Assembly (NCBI GenBank): GCA_009693045.1
Contig: SHXZ01000010.1
Span: forward strand, 1 to 64,000
Direction: 5' to 3'
DNA length: 64,000 bases
Source: Dehalococcoidia bacterium
Lineage (GTDB): Bacteria > Chloroflexota > Dehalococcoidia > Lucifugimonadales > SHYT01
The notes beneath the pieces are model-generated. The model did no database searches. It was not told where the DNA came from and saw nothing but the letters and a program-made list of their open reading frames with translations. Made by a program: the position numbers and the translations under genes. Below, in pieces: positions 19,476 to 51,849 of this stretch (its first letter is position 1; each line of letters starts with the position of its first letter).

Positions 19476-19506
19476 TATAAGGGCGACCCGCCGGGTCACC
19501 CTTATA
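19476..19506 (+). terminator. Hairpin after serA
   Basis: A stem TATAAGGG..GACCCG with CGGGTC..CCCTTATA, one mismatch, from 19476 to 19506. There is no T-run, so terminator activity is probable rather than certain. Confidence 0.5.
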
Positions 19507-19579
19507 CGATGGTGACGACCGCCGGACGAAACTATGTAGTCACGCCTACGAGTCCACGGCGGTGAGGTGGGAGAACGAC

Positions 19580-20146
19580 ATGCCGCTCGCCGACGAACCG
19601 AACGGGAAAGAGGGCCTTGACCCTGTGCCTGACGACCAGGGACTCGGCGGGTCGTTGCTGGTCCCTGGGCTCCAGTCGGCCAGCGGCATCGTGCGGTCGG
19701 TCTCGCGGCTACGCCTGCTGCTTGTGACGGTTGAGCGGCGCTACGACGAGTCGCACCGCCGCGTCCTCGCGTTCCGCCAGCAGCTCCGTCGCGTGCCCAC
19801 GCGCGCGGTAAACGGCCACTTGGCGGGTGATGCCTACCTGGCCGTGATGGCCGAGACCCGCGCGCGGCTCCAACGCGCCGAGCAGGAGATGGAAGACCTG
19901 GACCTGCTCAAGCGCCGCGTGACCATGGACCTCCACGCCTTGGAGCTGATGGAGAAGATCCAGCGGACGCAGCAGGAGCTCGCCGAGCTGCGGGAGCAGG
20001 CGCGCTGGGACGCCCGCGACGAGGTGGCGGCGGAGATCCGGAGACTGGAGCGCATCGCCGGCGAGTTCGTCGCCGAGGCGGCGCGCAGCATCACCACCGG
20101 CGACGAGCTACCCCCAACGCTGGAGCCGCCTGCACAGGGCCGCTAA
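19580..20146 (+). CDS. Coiled-coil protein, function unknown
   Basis: A 188-residue hydrophilic protein. After a low-complexity N-tail there is a long heptad-patterned region (about 75-165: ETRARLQRAEQEMEDLDLLKRR, then LMEKIQRTQQELAELREQAR) rich in Glu, Arg and Leu, predicted as coiled coil. No catalytic motif or membrane segment is seen. ATG 19580 is preceded by GGTGGGAG. It sits between serA and the AT-rich orphan cluster; its GC-rich codon use matches the core genome, so it is probably native. Confidence 0.65.
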   Translation: MPLADEPNGKEGLDPVPDDQGLGGSLLVPGLQSASGIVRSVSRLRLLLVTVERRYDESHRRVLAFRQQLRRVPTRAVNGHLAGDAYLAVMAETRARLQRAEQEMEDLDLLKRRVTMDLHALELMEKIQRTQQELAELREQARWDARDEVAAEIRRLERIAGEFVAEAARSITTGDELPPTLEPPAQGR

Positions 20147-20216
20147 GGCCACTGGACTGTAGTTTTGTGTTGTTGGCACTGCGCATGGAACTGCTAGATA
20201 TCTACCCCTTCCTTTC

Positions 20217-20618
20217 TTAGGCTCTCCATAGCCTCAGCTTGCGTGAGTGTTCAACAAAATTCTTGCGATCCGTTTCTTTATAGGGTTTCTCTAACTGGGC
20301 AGTCCGCTCACGCGCAATCCTCAAATTAGCGTCAGTGCTTGCCAATCGAAACGCAATCCTACGCCAGACTAACCCTCCGAAGTAAACCAATGATAGAAAA
20401 AAGCCACCGGAAATCCCGAGCACTACCGGGAAATTAGCAATGTTAGACACCCCCTTAGAAAAGCCGGTTGTGCTCGCGAGTAATGTAGAGCCTCCGGCAG
20501 CGAATAGGATAACTACCAAGGAGCCTGCCCGAAGAAGCATGCTTGATGAGAAAACGAGGCTATCGTAGCCGTGCTCCATTTGCGTGTTTGCGCGTAGCAT
20601 GACGGTCGCTAGCCGCAT
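20217..20618 (-). CDS. Small membrane protein, AT-rich cluster gene 3
   Basis: A 133-residue protein with two membrane segments (about 29-48, LRAGSLVVILFAAGGSTLLA, and about 65-85, VVLGISGGFFLSLVYFGG) and a charged C-tail (RIARERTAQLEKPYKETDRKN). No family is recognised. ATG 20618 lies 9 bp after the stop of the next gene upstream (20628-20969), suggesting one transcript. Composition is markedly more AT-rich than serA or DUF1015 on either side. Confidence 0.6.
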   Translation of the reverse strand: MRLATVMLRANTQMEHGYDSLVFSSSMLLRAGSLVVILFAAGGSTLLASTTGFSKGVSNIANFPVVLGISGGFFLSLVYFGGLVWRRIAFRLASTDANLRIARERTAQLEKPYKETDRKNFVEHSRKLRLWRA

Positions 20619-20627
20619 AGCCCTTGT

Positions 20628-20969
20628 CTAGATTCTCTTGGCCGACTCTCGATCCGCGCGCACGCCGATCAGATCGCAATAGGTGTGATACCATTCGCCC
20701 CCAACGTTGTTGATAGCACCGTCAATCACGACCAGATCAATTGGCGGGTAGTGAACATCCATTTCGGTTCGCGCGAATCTATTAGTCAGACGGTGAATTG
20801 CTGCACGAAATTCCTCGCTAGCTTGAGCTAGATTAGTGGCTTTGAATGCTATTTCCTGATTGATGCCTGGTCGCGGCCCAGAGGTATAAGGATCTAGCAG
20901 GGTGATGAAAAACTCTTGGCCAAAGTTACTGTTGATACGGGCATGATGGAAAGCACCATGAAAGGCCAA
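20628..20969 (-). CDS. Small soluble orphan, AT-rich cluster gene 2 (possibly 5'-truncated)
   Basis: A 113-residue protein containing DVHYPPIDLVVIDGAINNVGG and EWYHTYCDLIG. No family recognised. The only usable start is TTG 20969, which lacks a clear ribosome-binding site, and an in-frame TAA lies about 24 bp further upstream; the gene may have lost its 5' end. It is sandwiched between two genes for two-helix membrane proteins on the same strand. Confidence 0.5.
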   Translation of the reverse strand: MAFHGAFHHARINSNFGQEFFITLLDPYTSGPRPGINQEIAFKATNLAQASEEFRAAIHRLTNRFARTEMDVHYPPIDLVVIDGAINNVGGEWYHTYCDLIGVRADRESAKRI

Positions 20970-21067
20970 CCGGGCGAGGATTAGTGATTTTTAATAGGCC
21001 ACCTTACTATGATATACGTGAGCGCCAACGGAGCTATAAAGCACCGGTCCAGCGGGCACCCACTTTA

Positions 21068-21535
21068 TCAGCACCCTGCTAGTTCCTCTGCAGGCAGATC
21101 CCCTTCCTCGAGAGTATGTAGCAAGCTTGCTTTAGCCTGTTGTCTCTCAGAATCGGCCGCACCCATAAGGAAAATGATGAACGTCGTTACTATGGCCACC
21201 ACCGTGGCCGCTGCGGTCAAAATTCCGACGCTTATGATCACCAACGTATCATCCTGTACTATTAACCAACCACTAATTGTAAATCTCCAAATCGTGCTTA
21301 TTAACATAGCAGTGCCGCCCGTAGCGGCAATCATCAATGCCCCCATGCCTAAACTCAGGAAGGTACGCTGGCTCACAGAACGACGGGATTGATCGTAGGT
21401 GTTTCTCCATTCCGGCAACAACTCCCACGCGGCCCTAGCATGCTCATCTAACTCTGTTGGTGCCGAGCGGGCTTCAGTAGACCGCGCAGTTTCTCTCTTA
21501 TTGGGATCGGGTGCTTGCTCGGAGCTATTGTTCAT
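21068..21535 (-). CDS. Small membrane protein, AT-rich cluster gene 1
   Basis: A 155-residue protein: a hydrophilic N-half rich in Ser/Glu/Arg (EQAPDPNKRETARSTEARS), then two membrane segments (about 61-82, FLSLGMGALMIAATGGTAML, and about 99-122, IISVGILTAAATVVAIVTTFI) and a short charged tail. ATG 21535 follows AGAGGA. It starts 39 bp after the DUF1015 gene ends, on the same strand, so it could be co-transcribed with it. No family recognised; topology resembles gene 3 of the cluster. Confidence 0.6.
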   Translation of the reverse strand: MNNSSEQAPDPNKRETARSTEARSAPTELDEHARAAWELLPEWRNTYDQSRRSVSQRTFLSLGMGALMIAATGGTAMLISTIWRFTISGWLIVQDDTLVIISVGILTAAATVVAIVTTFIIFLMGAADSERQQAKASLLHTLEEGDLPAEELAGC

Positions 21536-21574
21536 GGGTCCTCTCTTTTGCGATTTGCTCCGGCGGATTATCGT

Positions 21575-22861
21575 TCATTCGTCCAGCGTCCGCAGCACGA
21601 TGCCCGTTGGCAGCTTGGGGTAGAAGTACGTCGTCTTGGGCGGTAGGCGCTGCCCCTTGGACGCCAGCTTGCGGAACACGCCGAGCGGGATCGCGCGCAC
21701 GAGGAAAGCGGCCTGGGCCTCGCCGCTCTCCAGCGCGTGCGCGACCTCGTCAACGCCGTGGGGAAACGCCACGTGCCGCAGCATGTCCGCGCCGAGGACG
21801 GGATTGAGCAACGCCTGGTGGAGCACCCACGTCTCGCACTCGCGGAACTCGGGGACGGGCGCAGGCGGCAGCGGCGCCTGCGGCTTGAGGCGTAGCAGCG
21901 CCGCCGAGGGGGTGCTCGCGTCCAGGAAGCCGAGCACCGTCGTGCCTTCGCCCGCCGAGTCCAGCCTCGCCGCGAGCGCCCGCGCCCGTTCGGAGAGCGA
22001 GCCACCCGCGCCCACCGGCTCCTCGTCAAACGCGTCGCGAACTCGCCGCCGCAACGCTTCCACCTGCTCTTGTCCAAGCCCGCTGAGTACTCGATGGAAC
22101 GACTGCACCTCAAGTCCGGGGTCTTCCATGCCCACCAGCCCCATCAGCACGCGGGACGCGCCGGGCAGCGAGCCGCCGGACTGGTCACGGAACGTCAGCG
22201 CCGTCTCGTAGCGGTGGTGCCCGTCGGCGATGTACAGCCGCTCGTTCCGGAGCGCCCGCTGCACCCACGAGCAGGACGCCGCGTCGTCCAGCACCCACAC
22301 CCGGTACGTCACGCCGGCCACGGTGAACGGCCCCGTCAGGGGCTCGCGGCTCCGGGCCTGCTCGTCAAGCAGGCCACCGAGGCCGCCGTGATCTTCGTAC
22401 AGCGCCATCACCGGGCTGATGTTGGTCTGGCAGGCTTTAAGTAGACGCATCCGGTCCTGCTTCGGGCCGGGGGTCGTCTCCTCGTGCGGCACCACGATGC
22501 CGCGCTCCCACGGCTCCAGCGTCACCGCGCCGTACAGAGAGCGGCGCGCTCTCTGGCGGCCTCGCACCTCAAACGCCTCCTCCACCAGGTAGAACGCCGG
22601 ACGCTCCTCGCGGGCCAGCACGCCGTCCGCCCGCCACCGACGCAGCAGGCCAACAGCGCGCGTGTAGACGTTCTCGGCGTCGTTGTCGCCGGGTTGCGGT
22701 AGGCCCAGCTCCAGGCGCACAACGTTGTTCGGGTGCTGCCGGTGGAGCCGCTGCTGCTCCTCGGCGTTGATGACGTCGTACGGCGGCGCGACCACCTGCG
22801 CCAGGTCGGGCGTCACGCCCAGGTTGTAGCGCCATCCGCGGAATGGGCGAACGTCAGCCAT
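21575..22861 (-). CDS. DUF1015 family protein
   Basis: A 428-residue DUF1015 protein. Diagnostic stretches are VRPFRGWRYN at the start, VVAPPYDVIN (24-33), HPNNVVRLELG, YGAVTLEPWERGIVVPHEETTPGPKQDR (about 110-137), NISPVMALYED and YIADGHHRYETAL (about 215-227). The biochemical role is not established; it has been described as distantly ParB-like. From memory, DUF1015 genes recur beside serA and a class V aminotransferase in clostridia, and here the gene lies close to exactly that pair, supporting a serine-linked role. ATG 22861. GC-rich, unlike the three small genes immediately downstream. Confidence 0.85.
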   Translation of the reverse strand: MADVRPFRGWRYNLGVTPDLAQVVAPPYDVINAEEQQRLHRQHPNNVVRLELGLPQPGDNDAENVYTRAVGLLRRWRADGVLAREERPAFYLVEEAFEVRGRQRARRSLYGAVTLEPWERGIVVPHEETTPGPKQDRMRLLKACQTNISPVMALYEDHGGLGGLLDEQARSREPLTGPFTVAGVTYRVWVLDDAASCSWVQRALRNERLYIADGHHRYETALTFRDQSGGSLPGASRVLMGLVGMEDPGLEVQSFHRVLSGLGQEQVEALRRRVRDAFDEEPVGAGGSLSERARALAARLDSAGEGTTVLGFLDASTPSAALLRLKPQAPLPPAPVPEFRECETWVLHQALLNPVLGADMLRHVAFPHGVDEVAHALESGEAQAAFLVRAIPLGVFRKLASKGQRLPPKTTYFYPKLPTGIVLRTLDE

Positions 22862-22889
22862 TAGCCCTCACACCCTCGGCATACTCGGG

Positions 22890-23005
22890 GCAGGCTCCAA
22901 CCCTCTCCTACACGGGAAGAGGGAGTCTTGATTGGATCAAGAACGCTGGCTTGAATACACATCTCCCCGTCCTGCCAACGTAGGGGCGCACAGCGGTGCC
23001 CCTAC
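22890..23005. repeat. Two dispersed palindromic elements
   Basis: CTCCAACCCTCTCCTACACG with its GGAAGAGGGAG complement (about 22890-22925), and a GTAGGGGCGC...GTGCCCCTAC palindrome at 22980-23005. They occupy the gap between DUF1015 and the GIY-YIG gene. Confidence 0.6.
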
Positions 23006-23082
23006 GCGTCCCGCGGGGTAGGCATCTCTTCTCATTGTTGGGAGCCTTTCGCAGTGTTTGGTGCAGGGCCGCGGGAAGTATA

Positions 23083-25682
<2,600 letters not shown>

Positions 25683-49849: not shown

Positions 49850-50086
49850 CCTCACCCCTAACCCCTCTCCACAATGTGGAGAGGGGTTGGCTTTATAGCC
49901 ACGTGGGTAGCATTGTATCGTGCGTGGAGATTCTTCGCAGCGCTCACAATGACGACGGGGGCACCCTTACCCCCGGCCCTGTTCTTTTCGTGTGGAGGAT
50001 GAGGAGTGAGTGCTAGGTAGTTGCAGGTGAGTCGCGCGGTGGGCAGCGCAATGTGGTGGAGATTCCTCACTCCGTTCGGAATGACA
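49850..50086. repeat. Three dispersed palindromes in the dapL upstream region
   Basis: CTCACCCCTAACCCCTCTCC with its GGAGAGGGG partner (49850-49889), GAGATTCTTCGCAGCGCTCA followed by CAATGAC (49927-49953), and GAGATTCCTCACTCCGTTCG followed by GAATGACA (50058-50086). No gene in 49835-50096. Confidence 0.75.
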
Positions 50087-50096
50087 GTGGGAGGTG

Positions 50097-50300
50097 CTAG
50101 TGGATGACGTCCTCGTCTTCGTCAACGACGGAGAGCTGGCTTTTGTGGACGAGGAGCTTGTCGCCGGCGGTCAGGGTGAATCGGTACAGGGGCTCGTTGG
50201 CGCGGCAGAGGTCGCAGTCCTCGGGCCAGACGCCGAAGACGTTGTGGTGGAGCTGGCGGTTTTCTTCGGTCCAGGTGATGGCGCTGGGCAGGTCAGACAT
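50097..50300 (-). CDS. Small acidic protein with CDLC motif
   Basis: A 67-residue protein, MSDLPSAITWTEENRQLHHN..., containing VWPEDCDLCRANEP (C-x-x-C) and an acidic end VVDEDEDVIH. With the neighbouring HH it could bind zinc. No family recognised. ATG 50300 has a GAGGT-type site upstream. GC content matches the core genome. Confidence 0.55.
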   Translation of the reverse strand: MSDLPSAITWTEENRQLHHNVFGVWPEDCDLCRANEPLYRFTLTAGDKLLVHKSQLSVVDEDEDVIH

Positions 50301-50309
50301 GAGGCATAA

Positions 50310-50387
50310 CCTCACCTCCTCCCTCCCCCTCTCCACGATGCAGAGAGGGGGAGGGAGACGGATTCTTCGCTGCGCTCAGAATGACAA
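50310..50387. repeat. Two dispersed palindromes
   Basis: CTCACCTCCTCCCTCCCCCT with the GGGGGAGGGAG partner (50310-50357), followed by GATTCTTCGCTGCGCTCAGA then ATGACA (50360-50387). They follow each other directly, the same order as at 48491-48620. Confidence 0.75.
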
Positions 50388-50474
50388 GCAGACGATGACT
50401 CAGATACTCGGAGGCACAAACCACCTGGGAGCACTGAACTTAATTGTTATGTGATAGACCATCGAATCCTTCAG

Positions 50475-50918
50475 TTACTCGTCCGTTGTTTTTCTATCCA
50501 TCTTCCATTTGAGCAAACGTTTCGTACCCTGGCTTCCATACGTCTCTTCGTAGTGCTTCAGGCTTACCAAGTACATATCAGCGTGGTCAGTGGCTTCAAG
50601 ATATATTCCAACCCATGGATCGCAACTAAAAGCACGGCATGCGTCCAACAGCTTTTTCCGATCATTCTTTTTGTCATCTAATAAGGTTACGTGGTCCCGT
50701 TCTGTACCCTTGACCCTGGTTCTTGCCTTGACGCTGATTCCGAATCTCCGGTCAGTTTTGGAATTATAAGCAATTATGTCGATGCCAGTGTGATCAATTA
50801 TTGATGTCTCAAAACCAGAACGAGATAGCCAGTTGCAAATTAGGACTTCTCCAAGCTGACCAATGATCTCCGAATGTCGTGAGCTCTTGTGAATTGGCGA
50901 ATTTGAATCATTAGACAT
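50475..50918 (-). CDS. PD-(D/E)XK nuclease-like protein overlapping dapF
   Basis: A 147-residue AT-rich protein. GQLGEVLICNWLSRSGFETS (20-39, helix with Glu24), HTGIDIIAY (43-51, Asp47) and FGISVKARTR (59-68, Lys64) follow the order of restriction-endonuclease-like folds (E, D, x-x-K), although the residue two before Lys is Ser rather than Glu/Gln. It would act on DNA or RNA if active. The first 8 bases of the gene (ATGTCTAA) overlap the end of dapF, so translation may be coupled. Composition and codon use differ sharply from dapF, indicating transfer. Confidence 0.6.
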   Translation of the reverse strand: MSNDSNSPIHKSSRHSEIIGQLGEVLICNWLSRSGFETSIIDHTGIDIIAYNSKTDRRFGISVKARTRVKGTERDHVTLLDDKKNDRKKLLDACRAFSCDPWVGIYLEATDHADMYLVSLKHYEETYGSQGTKRLLKWKMDRKTTDE

Positions 50919-51849
50919 TCTTTGTGTCCCACTCCACGTCAAACACCTCCGCAATGGGGCCTTCCATGACCACCTCGCCCACGCCGTCCCAGGTGATGCG
51001 GAGCGTGCCGCCATGGAGTGTTATGTCAACAGTGTCGTCCGTGAGGCCGTGGAGGCGCGCGGCCACGGCGACGGCGCAGGCGCCAGTTCCGCAGGCCATG
51101 GTCTCGCCGGAGCCGCGCTCCCACACGCGGACGTTGAGGTGGCCGCGGTCAACGACGTTGACGATCTCAAAGTTGACGCGGCGGGGGAAAAATGGGTGGT
51201 GCTCCACCTTGGGGCCGACCTGGTGCAGCGGAAAGTCGGCGATTGGGGTAGTGAGGAAGGCGACGGCGTGCGGGTTGCCCATGGAGACGCAGGTGAGGCG
51301 CAGGGCGTGGCTGTCCACGGTGAGGAGGTGGTCCATCAAAGGCCCTTCGACAGGCTCAGGGCGAGCGGGTGTATCGCGCAGATCCGCTGATCTAACCCCC
51401 GGCCCCTTCCCTGCGAGGGAAGGGGAGGAAGTGGTGAGCATCGCAGTGTTCACCGGGATGTCTGCTGGGCGAAGGATGGGTTTGCCCATGCCGACGCGGG
51501 CGCCGGTGATGACGCCGTTGGTGAGGACTGGCTCAACGGTCTTGATGCCGGCGAGGGTCTCCACGCGGAACGGCCTGCCCTTGGGCCGCTGGGCGAGGTT
51601 GTTTTCCATGGCGAAGCGGACGAGGCAGCGGATGCCGTTGCCGCACATCTCGCCCTCAGAGCCGTCGGCGTTGAACATCCGCATGCGGATGTCGGCGGTG
51701 GTGGACGGCAGGGCGAGGATGACGCCGTCGGCGCCGACGCCCAAGTGGCGGTGGCTGATGGCGCGGGCGACGGCGGGCCAGTCGGCCTGCTGGCGGCCGT
51801 CGGTGAAGAGGTAGTCGTTGCCGGCGCCGTGGAGCTTGGTGAAGCGCAT
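50911..51849 (-). CDS. dapF: Diaminopimelate epimerase with repeat-derived insertion
   Basis: A 312-residue DapF that interconverts LL- and meso-diaminopimelate. The start MRFTKLHGAGNDY, first catalytic Cys69 in MCGNGIRC, MGNPHAVAF and the second catalytic Cys in ETMACGTGACA are all intact. It exceeds the usual length of about 275 by roughly 35 residues. The excess (136-170, AMLTTSSPSLAGKGPGVRSA and DTPARPEPVEG) is encoded by two dispersed repeats inserted in frame in a surface loop between PADIPVN and PLMDHLL. ATG 51849. Works with DapL in the lysine and cell-wall precursor pathway. Confidence 0.93.
   Translation of the reverse strand: MRFTKLHGAGNDYLFTDGRQQADWPAVARAISHRHLGVGADGVILALPSTTADIRMRMFNADGSEGEMCGNGIRCLVRFAMENNLAQRPKGRPFRVETLAGIKTVEPVLTNGVITGARVGMGKPILRPADIPVNTAMLTTSSPSLAGKGPGVRSADLRDTPARPEPVEGPLMDHLLTVDSHALRLTCVSMGNPHAVAFLTTPIADFPLHQVGPKVEHHPFFPRRVNFEIVNVVDRGHLNVRVWERGSGETMACGTGACAVAVAARLHGLTDDTVDITLHGGTLRITWDGVGEVVMEGPIAEVFDVEWDTKNV
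51340..51435. repeat. Two dispersed palindromic repeats inserted inside dapF
   Basis: CCCTTCGACAGGCTCAGGGC then GAGCGGG (51343-51369, the element that encodes RPEPVEG), and CTAACCCCCGGCCCCTTCCC with the GGGAAGGGG partner (51391-51427). Both are translated in frame. Confidence 0.8.

Follow-up and report, generated by a model that had tools for sequence, protein, structure and literature searches.

A 181-bp MITE-like element within a low-GC, probably split gene of a Dehalococcoidia bacterium

Three small open reading frames (ORFs) lie side by side on the minus strand of a Dehalococcoidia contig, in an AT-rich stretch flanked by GC-rich genes, raising the question of whether each of them is a gene in its own right. 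The window, meaning the whole stretch of DNA that was analysed, comprises 64,000 nucleotides of a draft genome that is 82.8% complete. ORF 1 (20217–20618, minus strand) encodes a protein of 133 aa in which two hydrophobic stretches are combined with a long, charged helix at the C-terminus, ORF 2 (20628–20969, minus strand) a soluble protein, and ORF 3 (21068–21535, minus strand) a protein whose hydrophilic N-terminus is followed by a hydrophobic hairpin. The gaps between them are 9 bp (ORF 1/ORF 2) and 98 bp (ORF 2/ORF 3). The GC content is ~0.50–0.52 in the ORF stretch versus ~0.68–0.71 in the flanking serA, DUF1015, and ligA genes, in agreement with the composition shift pointed out in the original prediction. 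Hydropathy analysis likewise bore out its description of two membrane proteins with a soluble ORF between them, with the qualification that under a strict cut-off only the second hydrophobic stretch of ORF 3 was called (two overlapping windows, 91–123), the first (approximately residues 58–82) falling below it. ORFs 1 and 3 were each predicted by single-sequence AlphaFold modelling to form a helical hairpin, with modest confidence (mean pLDDT 72 and 69, respectively), and neither model had a PDB fold match at E values up to 0.001.

When ORF 2 was searched against the genome, the ORF itself and four short matches (22–29 residues) were returned, all four to its first ~30 residues. DNA comparison revealed a repeat of ~190 bp (~20893–21083) with three further full copies in the genome at 91–95% identity, and a partial copy of 51 bp, so that, with the locus copy included, the genome carries four full copies and a partial one. 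The repeat contains an element of 181 bp (20898–21078, no strand assigned) with terminal inverted repeats, CAGGGTG(A/C)TGA(A/T)AAA, whose ends match at 13 of the 15 outer bases and at 17 of the outer 30. It is adjoined by two copies of CTAG (20894–20897 and 21079–21082). CTAG borders both sides of all four full copies in this genome, while the single copy found in the same-family relative G001 has CTAA on either side; since the two borders vary together, the flanks are true target-site duplications. At 181 bp, the element is too short to encode a transposase. The repeat at 20898–21078 therefore bears the marks of a MITE. The element family was found only in this genome and G001, and among the papers found that mention MITEs together with Chloroflexi or Dehalococcoidia, none appeared to describe it.

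The element supplies the facing edges of ORFs 2 and 3. The TTG start and the first ~25 codons of ORF 2 are element sequence, no Shine-Dalgarno-like stretch precedes the TTG, and a TAA at 20993, in the frame of ORF 2 and just upstream of the TTG, also lies inside the element. ORF 2 is accordingly chimeric, with a native part at 20628–20893 and a remainder that is MITE. The stop codon of ORF 3 (TGA, 21070–21068) and its last few codons come from the MITE and the duplicated CTAG, and a purine-rich stretch, agagagga, precedes its ATG. The cluster of three genes claimed in the original prediction was thus correct as to the ORFs, their strand, their spacing, and their low GC content, but not as to the number of genes, since the 98-bp spacer and the adjoining ORF edges are the 181-bp repeat.

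The insert, comprising the element and one CTAG, is 185 bp long and displaces the reading frame by 2 (185 being 2 modulo 3). When the frame of ORF 3 is carried across this insert, it coincides with that of ORF 2, an agreement that by itself would occur by chance in one case out of three. Discounting the element yields an open frame of 237 codons or more, and a frame of this length in 1232 bp of DNA of such composition was rare in 1500 simulations (P ~0.0007). Taken together, the matching frames, the cleanly duplicated CTAG, and the lack of a native start and stop suggest that a single gene, designated gene A, has been divided into ORFs 3 and 2, with ORF 3 representing its 5′ part and the native portion of ORF 2 its 3′ part. 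Alternatively, ORFs 3 and 2 could always have been separate genes, the MITE having landed in a short gap between them and trimmed the end of ORF 3 and the start of ORF 2. An intact fused homologue is not known, and ORF 3 by itself resembles a complete hairpin protein, as this alternative would predict. We nevertheless consider it improbable, as a clean insertion with a 4-bp duplication, deleting nothing, would have had to replace both the stop of ORF 3 and the start of ORF 2, and, without the element, the two frames run through the junction uninterrupted and in a single phase.

The stretch thus most likely represents two genes, gene A, encoding a protein with an N-terminus of two transmembrane segments and a soluble C-terminal part and broken by the MITE, and gene B (ORF 1), encoding a second protein with two transmembrane segments, ORF 2 not being an independent gene. 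The splitting of a gene by a MITE is an ordinary event for an uncultured bacterium. The ancestral arrangement would have been a low-GC unit on the minus strand, located between two convergent conserved genes, in which gene B began 9 bp downstream of gene A. The ancestral gene A product would have been a membrane protein with a hydrophilic N-terminus, a hydrophobic hairpin, and a soluble C-terminal part of ~88 residues. A non-autonomous 181-bp MITE would then have entered a CTAG within gene A, duplicating the CTAG, presumably through the action in trans of a CTAR-targeting transposase. Translation of gene A would now end a few codons into the element, and its downstream half would persist as ORF 2, the sole start of which is the TTG within the element.

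The searches gave no homologue of gene A in uninterrupted form, so that the case for a single gene is built on the frame agreement, the duplication, and the lack of a native start; the weak coding signal and the lack of an identified parent element also count against it. GC content was flat across codon positions in ORF 1 (0.51/0.46/0.54) and ORF 3 (0.51/0.50/0.53), as compared with a GC3 of ~0.89 in native genes, which makes the coding signal weak and the coding status of the two ORFs uncertain. Such flatness would be expected if the whole AT-rich stretch were non-coding or decayed DNA and its ORFs were chance open frames, as would the absence of convincing homologues from every search and the modest rarity of the longest ORF (at least 155 aa, P 0.03 in DNA of such composition). 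By contrast, simulated DNA of such composition rarely contained three ORFs of 113 aa or longer (P ~0.002, 2000 first-order simulations), called hydrophobic segments numbered two or more in only eight of 753 random ORFs of 100 aa or longer, and the joined frame of 237 codons or more described above was also rare by simulation, making chance frames an unlikely explanation. A promoter scan gave no excess over shuffled sequences, terminator-like sites numbered three versus a shuffle mean of 1.6, and Rfam gave zero matches at E values up to 0.1 across 19500–23700.

The two genes are found at a variable junction, bordered on the left by a conserved gene for a coiled-coil protein (19562–20146, plus strand) and on the right by the DUF1015 gene (PF06245; 21575–22861, minus strand). 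In the two further family members compared, G001 and G002, the order aminotransferase, serA, coiled-coil gene, facing DUF1015, and ligA is kept, and A and B are absent. Among 98 genomes, the coiled-coil gene was matched in 24, DUF1015 in 49, and both in 16; exclusion of G003 (different contigs) and G093 (other arrangement) left 14 convergent pairs, this genome included. The distance between aligned ends was at most 163 bp in nine of the 14 order members (G010, overlap of 4 bp; G046, 11 bp; G092, 32 bp; G055, 33 bp; G050, 38 bp; G005, 66 bp; G022, 89 bp; G051, 143 bp; and G081, 163 bp), and extra DNA was present in the other five (G067, 431 bp; G002, 622 bp; G001, 1351 bp; this genome, 1434 bp; and G071, 2895 bp). 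This comparison with relatives, which the original prediction had proposed, supported the reading of the AT-rich stretch as an insertion relative to those genomes. In G001 the junction is filled by a ferritin gene (PF00210) and a small hydrophobic ORF, in G002 by a YetF/DUF421-like gene that is split into two overlapping frames (L049:7167–7677), and in G071 by ORFs of 377 and 326 aa, all of them unrelated to A and B.

Homology searches returned few matches. Against 147 relatives, ORF 1 and the tail of ORF 2 matched in this genome only, and four weak matches of ORF 3 elsewhere (E 0.002–0.008), two of them with internal stops, were judged to be due to chance. Among 400 genomes of the phylum, the ORF 2 tail had no match other than itself. 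The single match of ORF 1 elsewhere in the phylum set (G297, E 1.4e-4, 30% identity) was read as a generic two-helix protein and rejected as a homologue, the reason being that tblastn at that locus gave just one 17-residue match, at another place (E 0.31), and detected no counterpart of ORF 3 or of the ORF 2 tail. No homologues of A or B were detected in viral contigs, plasmids, or phages, nor any in genome contigs searched with the ORF 2 tail only, and PDB sequences gave weak matches only, the best (0.013) linking the tail of ORF 2 with a designed protein. As judged by these sequence comparisons, a convincing homologue of A or B appears to be absent from the relatives, the phylum sample (for ORF 1 and the ORF 2 tail), the viral contigs, plasmids, and phages, the genome contigs (for the ORF 2 tail), and PDB.

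The original prediction had also suggested a defence or toxin-like character, and a small cassette of this kind with membrane effectors would accord with an orphan low-GC insertion carrying hairpin membrane proteins and with the presence ~1.5 kb away of a phage-type endonuclease-like orphan (phrog_1111, E 4.8e-11). This idea found no positive support. None of ORFs 1–3 matched Pfam or NCBIfam above curated cut-offs, the lowest Pfam value being that of AtpR to 22 residues of ORF 1 (E 0.0016, below its curated cut-off), and no significant PHROGs family was found for the three ORFs. Neither SLATT nor any other effector family appeared in Pfam at E values up to 1, the best PADLOC value was 0.046 for a partial match of ORF 3 only, and a conserved partner is absent. 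We therefore regard a defence or toxin-like cassette as very unlikely.

Two further low-GC places were noted in the window. The endonuclease-like orphan (23083–23508, minus strand; 141 aa) lies between DUF1015 and ligA and is missing there in G001 and G002; its PHROG 1111 match is named ‘endonuclease’, and it appears GIY-YIG-like by eye, with no Pfam match listed. A 179-aa ORF (50475–51014, minus strand) in a low-GC island (GC 0.52, 50001–51000) adjoins a dapF-like gene (named by eye) and resembles a PD-(D/E)xK-type nuclease by eye.

The element ends were also used to search for an autonomous parent element, and none was identified in the relatives. The end pattern CTARCAGGNTGNTGAAAAA was present in 16 of 59 relatives, and a reversed control pattern in none. 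Closely spaced facing pairs of ends were ~120–170 bp apart in the four stretches read, and none of these pairs could be linked to a transposase. In G047, an IS21-like frame (named by eye) lies near one end and was not linked to it, the 5.5 kb examined there having yielded no second end. A left-end search of the genome and viral contig collections gave a sole match, to a genome contig stretch that is the same as that of G001. The pattern matches, set against the empty control, show that short elements with ends of this kind and with CTAR borders are numerous across the order. These elements (~120–170 bp; L033, L035, L036, and L061–L063) have the ends CAGG(G/C)TG(C/A)TGAAAAA and adjoin CTAG, CTAA, or TTAG, and the most pattern matches in one genome were seen in G051 (42 forward and 42 reverse).

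In the review PMC10969869, prokaryotic MITEs are described as non-autonomous derivatives of IS elements that can enter genes and create chimeric ORFs. The 181-bp element shares with them, as they are characterized there, its short length, multiple copies, terminal inverted repeats, 4-bp target duplication, and lack of a transposase ORF, and differs in that a parent IS was not identified among the sequences searched. Rickettsia palindromic elements, in the same review, similarly are repeats of ~150 bp located within coding regions and contributing codons; unlike those elements, which are in frame, the 181-bp element shifts the frame and stops the host gene.

A further possibility is that the MITE made a new soluble protein, ORF 2, consisting of ~25 repeat-derived residues and the C-terminal portion freed from gene A and translated from the start in the repeat. 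We consider this highly doubtful; if true, one membrane protein would have become a membrane hairpin and a free soluble partner, in the setting of a lineage-specific membrane-protein operon of an undescribed family. Under the preferred reading of a split gene A and an adjacent gene B, A and B would once have been functional proteins, and A would now be inactive. Because gene A is truncated, the former working of the A and B unit has probably been lost; judging from its anatomy, the unit may in the past have served as an accessory pair of inner-membrane proteins. The two-gene reading removes a false three-gene cassette and illustrates that a short mobile repeat can yield convincing yet spurious small genes in raw annotation. 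The short elements that appear to target CTAR across the order offer a lead in this little-studied group of Chloroflexota.
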